A DNA stretch of 37,878 bases from Syntrophorhabdales bacterium (lineage in GTDB: Bacteria > Desulfobacterota > Syntrophorhabdia > Syntrophorhabdales > WCHB1-27): contig DATKNH010000024.1 in assembly GCA_035541455.1 (NCBI GenBank), positions 1 to 37,878 on the forward strand. The letters are read 5' to 3'. The first letter of the stretch is position 1, and every line of letters begins with the position of its first letter. Positions 2,624 to 14,089 of the stretch are shown here, piece after piece. A program made the translations under genes and the position numbers. Below the pieces are notes generated by a model that saw nothing but the letters and a program-made list of their open reading frames with translations, had not been told where the DNA came from and did not search any database.

Positions 2624-4009
2624 CTATATCTCAAACTGCTCTCCTTTGCTTGGTACGTGAGTCACCAATCCCAGCCTCTCCTTGACTATGCTCTCAAACT
2701 CCAGGGCTGTCTTTTCTTCGCCGTGCACTATGAACACTTCGGGCTTGCTCGTAAAGGAGCCCAGCCACTCCAGCAGTTCCTTCTGGTCTGCATGAGCAGA
2801 AAAGCCGCCGATAGTGTAGATCGCAGCCTTGACAGCTATTCCTTCGCCGAGGACACGCACGCGCTTTGCTCCGTCGACGATCCTGCGTCCGAGGGTGCCC
2901 CGGGCCTGAAAGCCCGTGAAGATGACGCTGCACTCAGGCCTCCACAGGTTATGCTTGAGATGGTGAGCGATCCTGCCGCCCTCGCACATGCCGCTGCCTG
3001 CCATGATGATAACACCCGACTTTATACGGTTGATCTCCTGCGAATCAGCCACCGTTTTCGTGAAATGGATCCGGACTGCCCTTCCCTTGTATTGGATCTG
3101 GAAAAGCTTTTTCGCTTCTTCGCCGAAGTATTCTCTGTGAGAAAGATAGACGTTGGTGGCCTCTTCGGCAAGGGGGCTGTCCACGTAAAGGTCCATGGGC
3201 TCCAGCTTCCCTTCTCTCACCAGATCGTTTAGTATATACATTACGTCCTGCGTCCGGCCCACCGCGAATGTCGGCATCAGAACATTCCCGCCCTTCTGGA
3301 ACGTCAGTTTAATGGCGGCGGCAAGCTCGTCGATGCTCTGTTCCAGGCCCTTGTGAAACCGGTTCCCATAGGTGGACTCCATGACCACGTAATCGGCGGT
3401 CAGCGTGTATTCCGGGTCCTCGATGATCAGGTTCCCCTTCTTGCCGATATCCCCGGAAAAAACGATTTTCTTCTGGCCGCGGTCCGACGGATACCAAAGT
3501 TCAAACGAACCGGACCCGAGAATATGACCCGCGTCCACGAAGAGATATTTCATCCCGTTTCCCAGATCATTCGTTTCATCGTACATAACAGGCCTTAGAT
3601 ACCTCATAGAGGTTTTGACGTCATTCTCCGTGTAAAGGGGCTCAAAAACCTGTTCCTTTCCTGTGCGAAACGATTTCTTTGTCATCCACTCCGCGTCCTT
3701 TTCCTGGATGTGAGCGGAATCGAGGAGCATAATCCTGATCAGATCCGCGGTAGCCGTGGTGGTTATAATCTTTCCCTTGAACCCGTCATTCACAAGTTTT
3801 GGTATCAATCCGGAATGGTCCAGGTGGGCATGCGTCAGAAAGAGGCATTCAATGTCGGCAGGATTGAAAGAGAAAGGGGCCCGGTTTGCGTCATCCGCCG
3901 CCTCTCCCTGCTGCATGCCGCAATCCACAAGAAACTGCCTCTCGCCCACGGTCAAATGAAAGCAGGAACCGGTAACCTGCCGGGCAGCGCCGACAAATGC
4001 AATCTTCAT
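2624..4009 (-). CDS. MBL-fold beta-CASP RNA-processing exonuclease
   Basis: A metallo-beta-lactamase/beta-CASP protein of the CPSF/YSH1-like group, predicted to be a zinc-dependent RNA nuclease. The first metal motif HAHLDH is at residues 60-65, a later ligand His is in DAGHILGSG and the ligand Asp is in FSGDIGKKG. The beta-CASP domain occupies roughly residues 200-380, with GSGMCEGGRI and the RMMBL-type C-terminus FSAHADQKELLEW and VHGEE. At 461 residues it is full length. The ATG at 4009 follows AAGGGGG. It has its own likely promoter at 4155-4183. The RNA target is unknown. The family is widespread in anaerobes, and nothing links it to the neighbouring ligase beyond strand. Confidence 0.9.
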   Translation of the reverse strand: MKIAFVGAARQVTGSCFHLTVGERQFLVDCGMQQGEAADDANRAPFSFNPADIECLFLTHAHLDHSGLIPKLVNDGFKGKIITTTATADLIRIMLLDSAHIQEKDAEWMTKKSFRTGKEQVFEPLYTENDVKTSMRYLRPVMYDETNDLGNGMKYLFVDAGHILGSGSFELWYPSDRGQKKIVFSGDIGKKGNLIIEDPEYTLTADYVVMESTYGNRFHKGLEQSIDELAAAIKLTFQKGGNVLMPTFAVGRTQDVMYILNDLVREGKLEPMDLYVDSPLAEEATNVYLSHREYFGEEAKKLFQIQYKGRAVRIHFTKTVADSQEINRIKSGVIIMAGSGMCEGGRIAHHLKHNLWRPECSVIFTGFQARGTLGRRIVDGAKRVRVLGEGIAVKAAIYTIGGFSAHADQKELLEWLGSFTSKPEVFIVHGEEKTALEFESIVKERLGLVTHVPSKGEQFEI

Positions 4010-10054: not shown

Positions 10055-10639
10055 TCAGGCCGAGACGTTTACATTGGTGCCAACGGTTTGACCTGAGGCG
10101 CTATTACCTAAGGTCTCGAGTGAATTCCGCAGATCCTGCATAAGAGTGGCAAACGCGCTCTGCGCTCCCGCGAGATCGTTTGCCTGCAAGGCGCTGCTAA
10201 GGGTGGCAAGGTCAGTGCCGGAAGTCCCGTTCGTAATGCCAGAGTCAGCGGACGCGTTCTGCGAACCCGCATTGCCCAGGTCCTGCTGGAGAGTCGCAAA
10301 GGCCTTCTGGGCCCCTTGGAGATCATTAGACTGCAGGGCGCTGCCGATTGCCGCCAAATCAGACAAGGGGTTTGACGTGGCATCTTGCGTACCCTGCGCG
10401 CCGCCACCATGATGGTGGTGGTGACGATGATGAGATCTCTGCGTCTGTTGACCGCCCTGTGTTTGCCGCACCTGCTGCATATCTTGCTGGAGAATCGCAA
10501 AGGCCTTCTGGGCCCCTTGGAGATCATTAGAATTGAGGCTCTTTTTCAGAGCCGCAAAATCCTTCCTGACCTGTTGGAATGGGTTTGAGACATAGTTCTG
10601 AAAAGCGGTTGGGTCTGATGTGATACTCGAAATAGACAT
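10055..10639 (-). CDS. His-rich three-module repeat protein, unknown function (paralog 1)
   Basis: I do not recognise a characterised family. The 194-residue product has three copies of a helical module whose core is DLxxAQxAFATLxQDL, at about residues 24-55, 92-122 and 143-171. Between modules 1 and 2 is a Gln/His-rich linker with HHRHHHHHGGG (residues 70-80) that could bind metal. There is no signal peptide or membrane segment, and the composition is Ser/Gln/Ala-rich. The start MSISSIT matches that of the paralog at 10984-11679. The ATG at 10639 sits 5 bases after AGGAGG, and an adjacent ATG at 10642 is too close to it; a longer upstream frame lacks support. The gene is preceded by a small upstream ORF whose stop overlaps this Shine-Dalgarno. 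Confidence 0.75.
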   Translation of the reverse strand: MSISSITSDPTAFQNYVSNPFQQVRKDFAALKKSLNSNDLQGAQKAFAILQQDMQQVRQTQGGQQTQRSHHRHHHHHGGGAQGTQDATSNPLSDLAAIGSALQSNDLQGAQKAFATLQQDLGNAGSQNASADSGITNGTSGTDLATLSSALQANDLAGAQSAFATLMQDLRNSLETLGNSASGQTVGTNVNVSA

Positions 10640-10650
10640 CATCTTCCTCC

Positions 10651-10746
10651 TTACGTGAAATGTGGTGCCCGGTGCATTTTTGCCGGGTTCACCGCGTCCG
10701 GGATTCCGAGGTAGCCCCGCCCCCAACCACACCGGGACCGATACAT
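10651..10746 (-). CDS. Possible 31-residue upstream ORF (leader peptide)
   Basis: An ATG at 10746 (with a GTG immediately before it) lies 7 bases after a perfect AAGGAGG (10754-10760). The frame runs 31 codons, starting MYRSRCGWGRG, to a TAA at 10651-10653. That TAA merges with the AAGGAGG of the downstream repeat-protein gene, so terminating ribosomes would sit on its Shine-Dalgarno, suggesting coupled translation. The DNA also has inverted segments (10655-10664 against 10740-10750). No homolog is recognised. The rest of the gap up to 10983 shows no gene or clear promoter. Confidence 0.4.
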   Translation of the reverse strand: MYRSRCGWGRGYLGIPDAVNPAKMHRAPHFT

Positions 10747-10983
10747 CACGGAACCTCCTTACGTTATCGGCATCGCTACCTTTCTCTCTAGCTCCTTTTC
10801 GCCCTCCTCTCAATTAAATGACACAAAAGGAAATTTACGACCAACACACTGCCGAAGAAGACAAGTGATTCCCACAAAGGCACCGAACCAAACCACGAGA
10901 GATCCATGCAACAGCCTCTATCCGGTCTTGCAATGGATTCGGGAGGCATCCCTCCCTTCGGCCGAACGCAGCCTTCTCACGGG

Positions 10984-11679
10984 TTATCCTGTCGCCGAAA
11001 ACAACGCTGCGGTTGGTGAACTCAATCCAAACTGGCCCAGTTGCGCGTACAGGTTCAGCGCCTGCAACAGCGTGGCAGCGTACGAGGCAGATCCGCTCTG
11101 CGAGGTGCTGCTCGCTGCCTGAAACGTACCAAGCATTGACGCTGTGGTGCTTCCCTGATTCTCCGTGGCAGTACTGGTACTGCCCGCAGCAGTTGCGTTT
11201 TGCGTGCCGTTATTCCCCAGATCCTGCATGAGCGTTGCAAAGGCTTTCTGTGCTGCAGTAAGGTCCCCTGACTGAAGAGCAGTGCCCAGCGTTGTAAGGT
11301 CTGTCTTGAGGGCATCTGTATTGTTCTGCGTGTTTCCCTTGTGATGATGGCGATGACCATGGTGCAGACGGCCGGCTTTCAGGTCCTGAACGAGTGTCGC
11401 AAAGGCTTTCTGTGCTGCAGTAGGGTCCTTTGAATTGAGCGCATCGCCGAGGGCTGTAAGATCAGTGCTGATCTGGCTACTAACCCCGGTCTGCTGACTG
11501 GTGGTTGCGCTCGTGCTTCCCAGATCCTGCATGAGCGTCGCAAAAGCGCTCTGAGCTGTGGTGAGGTCCCCCGAAGCAAGGCTCGATGAAAGGCTTGTGA
11601 AATCCTGCCTCACCGATTGGAGCTGGCTCAAACGATCCTGATAGGTGCTCGTGCTATCCGAAATAGTGGAAATCGACAT
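10984..11679 (-). CDS. His-rich three-module repeat protein, unknown function (paralog 2)
   Basis: A 231-residue paralog of the neighbouring 10055-10639 product. Modules with the core DLTxAQxAFATLMQDL lie at about residues 22-54, 72-101 and 126-154. Here the His-rich linker HHGHRHHHKG (about residues 106-115) is between modules 2 and 3, whereas in the paralog it is between 1 and 2, so the linker has moved or modules were reshuffled. The tail from residue 160 is Ser/Thr/Ala-rich and ends in a hydrophobic, possibly amphipathic segment. There is no signal peptide. The ATG at 11679 follows AAAGGAGG at good spacing. A sigma-54 type promoter lies at 11754-11771. Function unknown; metal binding or a surface/filament role is speculation. 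Confidence 0.75.
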   Translation of the reverse strand: MSISTISDSTSTYQDRLSQLQSVRQDFTSLSSSLASGDLTTAQSAFATLMQDLGSTSATTSQQTGVSSQISTDLTALGDALNSKDPTAAQKAFATLVQDLKAGRLHHGHRHHHKGNTQNNTDALKTDLTTLGTALQSGDLTAAQKAFATLMQDLGNNGTQNATAAGSTSTATENQGSTTASMLGTFQAASSTSQSGSASYAATLLQALNLYAQLGQFGLSSPTAALFSATG

Positions 11680-11753
11680 CCTATGCCTCCTTTCCTGTAA
11701 TCACCGTAATTCGGTTCCGCCGGATCCCGGACCCGACAGGAACCCTCCATTAT

Positions 11754-11771
11754 GTGCAACCTGTGTACCAG
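11754..11771 (-). promoter_or_regulatory. Sigma-54 (-24/-12) promoter of repeat-protein paralog 2
   Basis: On the minus strand CTGGTAC (11765-11771), ACAGG and TTGCA (11755-11759). This keeps the GG-N10-GC core and differs from the TGGCAC-N5-TTGCA consensus at one base. It lies about 75 bases upstream of the ATG. Between it and the gene, TTCCTGT and ACAGGAA form an enclosing stem just before the Shine-Dalgarno. No enhancer-binding site was recognised. Confidence 0.6.
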
Positions 11772-12032
11772 TTCATGAAAGCCGGACTATTCAATGGGCT
11801 GAGCTTCGCCACACCACGTAACAGTCGCGAGGCTTTTCCCATAGTTTACGCAATTTCAGTATCTTATCTGGAGCTTCCTGCTTCGCTGCTCGGATGACAT
11901 TCCGGGCAACACTGATCCGCATGATAGGAAAAAATTTCCTGGCAGGAAGGGAAATTATACACACGTCTCCGCGGCAGGGGGTTAAGTTCCTTCCGGATGA
12001 GTCGATAAAAGATCAAGGCAGGAAGGATAGGC
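11772..12032. other. Divergent intergenic region without a gene
   Basis: With the promoter at 11754 and the leader of the 11679 gene, the whole gap 11680-12032 is about 350 bases. Apart from the sigma-54 promoter I see only a stem near the plus-strand gene, GGAAGG (11945-11950) with CCTTCC (11991-11996). No convincing promoter for the gene at 12033 and no ORF was found. Confidence 0.3.
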
Positions 12033-12539
12033 ATGTCAGATATCAGCGGCATCAGCAGTTCGCTTTTGAGCAATCTCCTGAACAGCCGGCAGGCGAATCT
12101 GATTCAGAGCGCCGGTAGTCAAGCTCAAAGCCCAAGCTCTGAAAACATCAACGACATCGTCAGTCTGCTAGGCGCGTCCGGCTCATCGGGCGATCCCCTT
12201 TACGGACTCCTGAGCGACACTCAAGGATCTGATGCGACCGCCTCCACATACAACCTCCTGCTCGGTGCTGTGAATGCGCAACTCATGAAGGACAATCCCA
12301 CGCTGGTTGAGGCGTTTCTAAAGGCAGAACAGGCGCAGAGCCAGCCAAGCGATACCGGCACATCATCCGGTTCGACTCAATCTCAGCAAACAAGTAGCCA
12401 GGCCGTGCAGAACCTCGAGAATGTCGACCTGCTCTCGATAAGCCCCCAGAACCTCACAGCGGTTCTGGAAAAATACCTCCAGTCAAAGAAGGCGACAGGA
12501 GAACCGGCGTCCGGTTCCCAGATGAACCAGAGCGTCTAG
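12033..12539 (+). CDS. Ser/Gln-rich protein of unknown function
   Basis: A 168-residue protein rich in Ser, Gln, Asn and Thr that I cannot assign. The N-terminus MSDISGISSSLLSNLLNSR resembles the MSIS-x-I starts of the two repeat proteins across the divergent gap. A central Leu-rich segment (about residues 68-95, YNLLLGAVNAQLMKDNPTLV) and a C-terminal one (LLSISPQNLTAVLEKYL) look helical, separated by a low-complexity Ser/Gln/Thr linker. There is no signal peptide or transmembrane helix. The ATG is preceded by AGGAAGG at good spacing. The context suggests one functional group with the repeat proteins and the exported proteins downstream. Confidence 0.65.
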   Translation: MSDISGISSSLLSNLLNSRQANLIQSAGSQAQSPSSENINDIVSLLGASGSSGDPLYGLLSDTQGSDATASTYNLLLGAVNAQLMKDNPTLVEAFLKAEQAQSQPSDTGTSSGSTQSQQTSSQAVQNLENVDLLSISPQNLTAVLEKYLQSKKATGEPASGSQMNQSV

Positions 12540-12599
12540 CGTAGTGCGCTCCCCCTCCATCTCCCGAGAGAAGATTTTCTTCCTGCAAAGGTCCATAGT

Positions 12600-13496
12600 A
12601 TGTCATCAGGCATGTCGAAGAAGGGGGCTCATTCTATGCAGCAATCCAGGAGAGCATTAGGGCTGTTGCTTGCCCCTCTGTTAGGTTTCTGGCTGATTCA
12701 GGGCGTCCTCCACGCAGCGAGTCCTGCACATGCCGACCACTCCACCGCCTTGCTTCAGCCGCAGCAGGGGAAATACTTCAAGTGGGCTGCTCCTGCAGGT
12801 TGGCGGGTCAGCGAAACAAACGCCGGCGTCACGTTAACTTCGCCCGATGGAGTCTACAGCGCGTCTCTGGCCATGCTCCTGCGCTCAAGGGGCACAAAGA
12901 CTCCCGAGGTTTTTCTGCAGTGGGTATTCACTCATGTACCCGGTTACAGGGATGCAAAAATTGTCTCAACAAAAAAGCTTCCGAACGAACATATGTCGTA
13001 TCAGGTGTGGCAGTTTATCGAGAGCACCGTCTCCTTCAACGACAACGGCTTACCAGTAACCGGTCTGTACAAGGTCGGCGTGGCCAACTACGCAGGGCTC
13101 AATGACGCCATGATCGTCGGTTTTCGCTCTGCTAACAAGAATTTCCAGGAAGCCCGGTCCTTCATGCCGCAAATCGCCAGGAGCATCGTCCTTACAAACG
13201 CTGCAGAGGCAAGCGGGAATAACACGCTCATCCGACCCAAGAATAATCCACTGGATAACTCGGCGGTAATCCAGGCAGGACAGAACAGGCAGAAAGCCGT
13301 TGACGAAGCCATGCGCAAAGACGCAAATACGCGACGCGGCACCGTAGATCTCTATGACCCCTCCACAGGCGAGAAGTTAAACGCCTACACACAGAGCAAA
13401 GAGTACTATTGGCGGAAACCCGGTTCCAACGAGGTGGTCGGCACCGATACCTACAATTCGCCGGGTGTTGGCTACGTCCCGCTCAAGAAGTATTAG
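12600..13496 (+). CDS. Exported protein of unknown function
   Basis: A protein of 298 residues with a signal peptide (basic SRRALGLLLAPLLGFWLIQG region, cleavage near PAHA-D at about residue 46). A folded domain of about residues 55-200 begins YFKWAAPAGWRVSE and is followed by a Gln/Lys-rich linker. The C-terminal motif reads TGEKLNAYTQSKEYYWRKPG, then NSPGVGYVPLKKY. No characterised family is recognised. Three in-frame ATGs are possible. The one at 12600 has AAAGG 8 bases upstream. The one at 12636 has AAGGGGG upstream and gives a more compact signal peptide, so the true start may be 12636. It is co-directional with the Ser/Gln-rich gene. Confidence 0.7.
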   Translation: MSSGMSKKGAHSMQQSRRALGLLLAPLLGFWLIQGVLHAASPAHADHSTALLQPQQGKYFKWAAPAGWRVSETNAGVTLTSPDGVYSASLAMLLRSRGTKTPEVFLQWVFTHVPGYRDAKIVSTKKLPNEHMSYQVWQFIESTVSFNDNGLPVTGLYKVGVANYAGLNDAMIVGFRSANKNFQEARSFMPQIARSIVLTNAAEASGNNTLIRPKNNPLDNSAVIQAGQNRQKAVDEAMRKDANTRRGTVDLYDPSTGEKLNAYTQSKEYYWRKPGSNEVVGTDTYNSPGVGYVPLKKY

Positions 13497-13516
13497 CGGG
13501 TAACGAACCGGTTATC

Positions 13517-14089
13517 TTATTGCCCTATCTTCCCGCTCCAGCTTGAGCACTCTCCGATCGAGTCGTACGAACATTGGGTGATTCCATCCAGCCAGGTCGC
13601 CCCTGACAAGTAAGCGCCGGAGAGGTCCGACCCGGAGAGGTCGGAGTTTGCGAGATTTGCATTGGAAAGGTTCACGCCCGACAGGTTGGTATCAGAGAGA
13701 TTAGCACTGGTGAGATTGACTCCTGAAAGATTGGCTCCGGAGAGATTGGCCCTGGAAACGGTCGCACCGGAAACATCCGCATGGGACAGGTTAGCACCCG
13801 ATAGGTTGGCATTGTACAGGATGGCGCCGGAGAGATACGAGCCGTACAGATTGGCACCGGAGAGGTCTGACCCGGCGAGGTTGGCAGCCGACAAATTGGC
13901 ATACGAGAGGTTGGCGCCGGAGAGGCTGGAGTTGGGCAGAGGGGCATAGCTCAGGTCACAGCGAGGACACTGCCTCTCTCCCAGGAGCATCTCCAGTGCT
14001 GTTCGATTGTAGGCAGATGACACAGCAGGCGCTAAGGAAAAAGCTGCAAAAAGAAAACAGAAAACAAACGCGCTCTTTGAAACCCTCAT
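13517..14089 (-). CDS. Exported pentapeptide-repeat protein
   Basis: A signal peptide (residues 1-26, cleavage after SSA) is followed by a Cys-x2-Cys segment (LLGERQCPRCDLSYAPL). About 22 tandem A(N/D)LSG pentapeptides then span residues 50 to 162 and form a right-handed quadrilateral beta-helix. A short Cys-containing tail closes the protein. The DNA of the repeat is a 15-base tandem. With 190 residues it is a small single-domain member, predicted periplasmic or secreted. Pentapeptide proteins act as binding scaffolds with no common function, so none is assigned. Its stop is 20 bases from the convergent exported-protein gene. Confidence 0.9.
   Translation of the reverse strand: MRVSKSAFVFCFLFAAFSLAPAVSSAYNRTALEMLLGERQCPRCDLSYAPLPNSSLSGANLSYANLSAANLAGSDLSGANLYGSYLSGAILYNANLSGANLSHADVSGATVSRANLSGANLSGVNLTSANLSDTNLSGVNLSNANLANSDLSGSDLSGAYLSGATWLDGITQCSYDSIGECSSWSGKIGQ

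Follow-up and report, generated by a model that had tools for sequence, protein, structure and literature searches.

Paired His-rich repeat proteins of a Syntrophorhabdales bacterium may be undescribed flagellum-linked metal-binding proteins

Calsymin of Rhizobium is a possible example of the bacterial EF-hand proteins that lack a signal peptide, and four-helix bundles of the MPH2 and PsbQ-like type belong to a photosynthetic, thylakoid setting. The small protein YjfB is reported to be co-conserved with flagellar genes (PMC11607428), and an EF-hand protein is reported among the genes lowered on RpoN loss in a Bradyrhizobium (PMC13207237). We analysed a 37,878-nucleotide stretch of a Syntrophorhabdales contig (the window), in which two genes encode the His-rich repeat proteins (HRPs) HRPa and HRPb (Table 1). 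Like the bacterial EF-hand proteins without a signal peptide, they combine an IS-rich N-terminus, few Cys, an acidic composition and a C-terminal tail, and fusions of EF-hands with their repeat module exist; unlike these proteins, HRPa and HRPb contain no EF-hand as judged by Pfam. A YjfB_motility (PF14070) member in the genome G040 ends in VGSNIDIYV, which resembles VGTNVNVSA of HRPb and the tail VGTNIDVAT of the genome G001, but it is about 60 aa long and has neither modules nor His. PF14070 gave no match in the HRPs (hits up to E 1) or in the window's own genome, G000. In the literature searches made here, neither the module nor flagellar export of EF-hand proteins was found described.

Each of the two neighbouring genes encodes three modules and one His cluster, and the cluster follows module 2 in HRPa and module 1 in HRPb, as the initial annotation had described. 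Pairwise identity among all six modules of about 30 residues was 50-77%, whereas shuffled modules matched on average at 3.5 and at most at 11 of 30 positions. The motif DLxxAQxAFATLxQDL proposed for the module does recur but is imperfect, since module 1 of HRPb ends in AFAILQQDM and module 2 of HRPa starts with DPTAAQ. Inspection by eye agreed with the annotation that no signal peptide is apparent in either protein. The start codon of HRPb is better placed at the ATG at 10639, which has AAGGAGG just upstream, than at the TTG at 10813 given by the ORF finder. In the region ahead of HRPb (10640-10760, minus strand), the ribosome-site string CGTAAGGAGG is present twice; the first copy before HRPb is followed by a possible leader frame of about 31 codons that ends at the second copy.

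Table 1. Coordinates of the HRP gene pair, its upstream sites and associated genes (window positions unless a locus is named)
Feature	Position	Strand	Description
HRPa	10984-11679	-	231 aa, with three helical-hairpin modules and the His linker following module 2
HRPa module 1	11521-11610	-	residues 24-53
HRPa module 2	11380-11469	-	residues 71-100
HRPa His cluster	11341-11364	-	HHGHRHHH, residues 106-113
HRPa module 3	11218-11307	-	residues 125-154
HRPb	10055-10639	-	194 aa, three modules, His linker after module 1
HRPb module 1	10478-10567	-	residues 25-54
HRPb His cluster	10409-10432	-	HHRHHHHH, residues 70-77
HRPb module 2	10277-10366	-	residues 92-121
HRPb module 3	10130-10219	-	residues 141-170
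HRPb C-terminal tail	10058-10084	-	VGTNVNVSA, matching the class tail G[ST]x[LIV]x[VIL]x[AVT]
Sigma54 -24/-12 site	11755-11770	-	TGGTACACAGGTTGCA (also given as TGGTACACAGGTTGC), 91 nt upstream of HRPa
Palindrome	11927-11939		GGAAAAAATTTCC (also given as GGAAATTTTTTCC), about 250 nt ahead of HRPa and 106 nt ahead of the 12033 gene
Weak partner palindrome	11905-11917		one good half-site, GGCAA; too degenerate for scoring in doublet scans
12033 gene	12033-12539	+	divergent protein, 168 aa, MSxISGISS start, no Cys, pI 4.1
SIAQG gene, L076	8802-9416	-
SIAQG gene, L081	10516	+
SIAQG gene, L125	1887	+
SIAQG gene, L128	1354	-

AlphaFold2 predicted every module as a helical hairpin, with low-confidence linkers between the hairpins. 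The predicted helices span residues 10-36/39-56, 64-82/86-106 and 118-137/140-160 in HRPa and residues 20-36/40-64, 91-103/107-127 and 140-152/156-182 in HRPb, in which the linker is disordered. The pLDDT of the modules was mostly 70-82, and overall confidence was low (mean pLDDT 54 for HRPa and 64 for HRPb, pTM 0.41). Foldseek returned nothing significant for either model, the best match being CyanoQ (E 0.56) for HRPa and FliS (5maw; probability 0.96, E 0.2) for HRPb; PsbQ and CyanoQ were among the best of these non-significant fold matches. Since none was significant, the Foldseek matches were dropped as identities. A search of the PDB by sequence found no relative (nothing below E 0.04), and no NCBIfam model scored above its cut-off. 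Pfam MPH2 (PF20675) gave 32.5 and 31.1 bits for the two proteins, compared with a gathering cut-off of 29. This match falls on Ala-rich helical repeats and is judged likely to be compositional. By judgement, the HRPs were not filed under MPH2 because other helical families score weakly over the same residues, the PsbQ model (TIGR03042) stayed far below its cut-off, and the setting is non-photosynthetic, no photosynthesis gene being recognised by eye in the window and the same-genus contig belonging to a Syntrophobacterales MAG. The earlier description of the pair as undescribed is thus largely upheld by the lack of an NCBIfam, PDB or fold match, with the exception that MPH2 passes its gathering score for both proteins.

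The difference in linker position had been taken as a sign of a mobile His linker. A Syntrophobacterales MAG of the same genus (L005/L026) encodes an HRPa with a plan identical to that of the window and an HRPb with four modules and the His cluster after the second. When the two HRPb proteins were aligned, the gap of the window's HRPb fell on module 2. Given this four-module plan in the same-genus protein, it is probable that the window's HRPb has lost its second module and that the linker itself is unmoved, and mobility was not borne out. In other relatives the cluster lies after module 2 (L006, L011) or module 3 (L012). Recombination moving the linker was dropped as an explanation, since module loss or gain accounts for the pattern.

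As judged from the sequences, the recurring unit is a protein class composed of module proteins, EF-hand proteins and fusions of both, rather than the HRP pair. Its hallmarks are an IS-rich start, a C-terminal tail of roughly G[ST]x[LIV]x[VIL]x[AVT] and almost no Cys. The MSIS-like N-terminal pattern was found in 24 of 28 class proteins and in 2 of 336 other genes, a count somewhat inflated by start codons set by eye at the MSIS-like start in some class genes. The class proteins contain 0.62 Cys per 1000 aa compared with 10.7 in the background of 336 genes, and their last residue is A, V, T or G in 28/28 cases compared with 124/476, although the class genes are not independent and several are orthologues. 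These counts cover 28-29 class genes; outside them stand L027, whose HRP starts in an N run, three module proteins (from G138, G292 and G314) and the G002 genome's second EF-hand protein (L078). The HRP of G081, truncated by the contig end, enters the sigma54 count and is absent from the terminal-tail and Cys counts. In three genomes of one genus (L016, L019, L020), an MVSSISS start, EF-hands, modules and a His/Gly linker occur in a single chain. A profile of the EF-hand and fusion C-termini matched the module-only HRP of G188 at 1.2e-11 and HRPa weakly (domain E 0.003). Most HRPs have a His cluster; the HRPs of G032 and G039 and the 12033 family lack one. The start that the initial annotation saw in common between the HRPs and the 12033 product is real and extends to the wider class, of which that product is a probable member.

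A further family, SIAQG, with an MIxSIAQGY start and about 204 nearly Cys-free residues, adjoins EF-hand genes, and Pfam assigned its proteins to no confident family.

With HRPa as the query, relatives turned up in 5 of the 41 own and related genomes and in 9 of 297 genomes of the phylum. A profile search matched 12 of 395 genomes, including two doubtful cases (G269 and G378) with E of about 6e-4 within long, unrelated-looking frames. The named matches outside the genus are one Limisphaerales MAG and one Acidobacteriaceae MAG, and tblastn found no HRP relatives in plasmids and phages. Used as a genome-wide DNA pattern, the MSIS N-terminus matched 20 places in the own genome, of which only HRPa and HRPb were convincing. 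A conserved group of five genes (10055-14089) had been proposed, but the flanks differ within the genus: the same-genus pair lies between MotA/OmpA-like and flavin-reductase-like genes (judged by eye), and the homologue of the 12033 gene is on a different contig. The five-gene operon was dropped since the neighbourhood is not kept in relatives. G032, by contrast, groups an HRP with a divergently oriented EF-hand protein, which has an MISGISG start and a His linker, and with a 12033 homologue that carries in-frame stops.

Among other neighbouring genes, window positions 13517-14089 encode a pentapeptide-repeat protein (Pfam PF00805) with an apparent signal peptide. Two lipoprotein-like proteins, similar to each other by eye, lie near an HRP in G028 (L082:921-2273) and near an EF-hand gene in G001 (L074:1381-2562); one of them has an FlgT_C match below threshold, and phmmer did not link the two to each other.

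The sigma54 site of HRPa has no mismatch to TGGYAYN5TTGC and one to TGGCAC-N5-TTGCW. Across the window there were 22 sigma54-like sites compared with 19.4 expected, a count not unusual in itself. When the 150 nt upstream of class genes were searched for TGGYAYN5TTGC with at most one mismatch, 15 of 29 had a site, compared with 10 of 386 non-class genes at these loci, a control that includes true sigma54 genes such as the own flgF (p 1.6e-13); 14 of 28 remained after exclusion of the window's HRPa. Exact sites precede HRPa of G000 and G001, the HRPs of G032 and G039 and the EF-hand genes of G005 and G038. No site was found in the same interval before the EF-hand and module fusions or the HRPs of G188, G268 and G308, and none was found upstream of HRPb, where the best candidate has three mismatches. 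HRPb lies on the same strand 344 nt downstream of HRPa, and the two genes probably share one transcript. All four SIAQG genes are preceded by a sigma54-like site, which is located at -52 to -56.

Upstream regions of many class genes also contain two 13-bp palindromes, GGMAANNNTTKCC, spaced 18-23 nt apart. Such doublets occurred 18 times (17 after merging) in 32 sources of 506,750 bases, compared with 0.25 expected from a first-order Markov model, for a consensus derived in part from class promoters. Permuted consensi (29) gave 0.62 on average, the highest count (7) coming from a near-identical pattern. Of the merged doublets, eleven are situated between class genes or ahead of them, five follow an EF-hand gene, and one (L116) is chance-like. 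At least one palindrome lies at about -160 to -180 of three of the four SIAQG genes, and therefore most of the doublets downstream of EF-hand genes are explained. Searching the 41 genomes for doublets at spacing 19 with at most two mismatches gave 39 places in 23 genomes, compared with 7 places for the reversed control. Ten of these precede fliK-type genes, 7 precede flgF and 10 adjoin class or SIAQG genes; another 3 (G011:C4:75629 and two in G026) are probable or unexamined, and 9 are other or unexamined. The fliK-type loci have the gene order fliI-fliJ-fliK-flgD-flgE, and Pfam supported FliK weakly, below cut-off, in one of three such genes. Pfam confirmed flgF at both loci tested (L144, L151). 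Five flgF loci have a sigma54 site between the doublet and the start; no sigma54 site was found at the fliK-type loci.

In the window, the palindrome GGAAAAAATTTCC is perfect and resembles an activator site. The own flgF (Pfam-confirmed) resembles HRPa in having one palindrome, with GGAAAATTTTTCC about 215 nt upstream and TGGCACGCCCTTTGC closer. Since the own genome has no full doublet anywhere at the search thresholds, support for a shared activator site comes from relatives. Doublets of the GGCAA type occur once per genome, away from flagellar genes, in G268, G308 and the Acidobacteriaceae genome (three genomes, two phyla), and perfect GGCAA...TTGCC doublets are seen upstream of an HRP gene at L028:9749-9784, L117:9433-9464 and L119:721-754. 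No known RNA family accounts for the palindrome pair, because Rfam at its gathering threshold reported only two tRNAs, both in L083, from eight sources. An appendage-related role, as raised in the initial annotation, gains real support from the sigma54 promoter of HRPa and from a palindrome of the type seen before flgF and fliK in relatives, and it is likely that HRPa belongs to a sigma54 flagellar regulon.

FlhA is present in 30 of the 41 genomes. It was found in all 11 EF-hand-positive relatives (p 0.017), a co-occurrence that may reflect genome size, in 4 of 5 module-positive relatives, in the Acidobacteriaceae genome and in all nine of the other genomes of the phylum that have modules. For EF-hand and module genes taken together, the association had p 0.06. 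FlhA is missing from G039, whose HRP has an exact sigma54 site, and from the verrucomicrobial Limisphaerales genome of L027, which encodes a module protein, indicating that module proteins are not restricted to FlhA carriers; this counts against export by the flagellar route. That the HRPs are exported at all seems fairly probable, and export through the flagellar apparatus is possible but rather less so. The conserved His linkers and the existence of EF-hand relatives would agree with metal binding, and the chances that the linker binds metal in life appear evenly balanced.

Some members have other regulatory neighbours. An OmpR-type regulator, with or without a histidine kinase, is divergent from the EF-hand gene at 5 of 11 EF-hand loci (L074, L076, L077, L079, L081), all of one subtype, and lies beside two of the three fusions (G116 and G081). 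LTXXQ (Spy/CpxP-type) proteins neighbour three loci; a histidine kinase and response regulator with LTXXQ adjoin the module protein of G138, the two-component genes occur at G292, and LTXXQ occurs at G188. The box GTAAAGAATTGTAAA, which we take to be CpxR-like, precedes the EF-hand genes of G000 and G001; in the own genome such boxes lie between an EF-hand class member and the divergent OmpR-type regulator (L077:2021-2719 and 2926-3411). Because these regulators and LTXXQ proteins neighbour members, the class as a whole is not purely flagellar. The HRPs could accordingly be envelope-stress or calcium/metal-response proteins that leave by another route, for example type I secretion via the C-terminal tail, with the flagellar link a lineage-specific promoter acquisition. 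The kept last residue and the class carriers without FlhA also point this way. We consider this unlikely, since no two-component gene lies beside HRPa and HRPb or most plain HRPs, no type I secretion genes were seen by eye near the loci, and the sites at flgF and fliK-type genes would be left unexplained.

A cytoplasmic role would agree with the absence of an evident signal peptide. If the proteins stored or chelated metal there, the His clusters of most HRPs would be accounted for, but the cluster is missing from the G032 and G039 HRPs and the 12033 family, no metal transporter or metal regulator was recognised by eye beside the pair, and the scarcity of Cys, the EF-hand cores and the flagellar-type promoters suit export better. 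The storage function suggested earlier found no support, and such a role is improbable. Flagellar-type regulation, together with the FliS match of the HRPb model, would also suit cytoplasmic helical-bundle chaperones of flagellar export resembling FliS or FlgN; yet that match was not significant, EF-hands, His linkers and low-complexity tails are not chaperone-like, and EF-hand-only members have no modules, which makes a chaperone very improbable.

The reading we prefer, to which we give about the same weight for as against, is that HRPa and HRPb are accessory proteins of a sigma54-dependent flagellar regulon, exported without a signal peptide and carrying metal-binding His linkers. Their regulation is well supported by sequence, and what lies past promoter anatomy and protein features we infer. 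An enhancer-binding activator of flagellar genes would bind the palindromes and turn on HRPa-HRPb while hook and rod are built. Passage over the inner membrane would then involve no cleaved signal peptide; the flagellar type III apparatus is the most likely route, and the IS-rich N-terminus would serve as the guide. Outside the cell or in the axial channel, the modules would form helical hairpins on flexible strings, and transition metals would be bound by the His linkers, in parallel with calcium binding by the EF-hand members.

The broader proposal, an unrecognised class with two tails (an IS-rich start and a GSxLxVxA end), nearly free of Cys, whose cores for binding calcium or metal are exchangeable and whose members are produced along with the flagellum and exported by its gate, is more doubtful. 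If it is true, the flagellum would be a supplier of extracellular metal- or calcium-binding protein. "Hypothetical" low-complexity proteins would gain a regulatory address in the sigma54 flagellar regulon and a likely exit route, the two terminal tails would let further class members be recognised, and the paired-palindrome site would offer an immediate means of predicting flagellar-regulon genes in an order that has been little studied.
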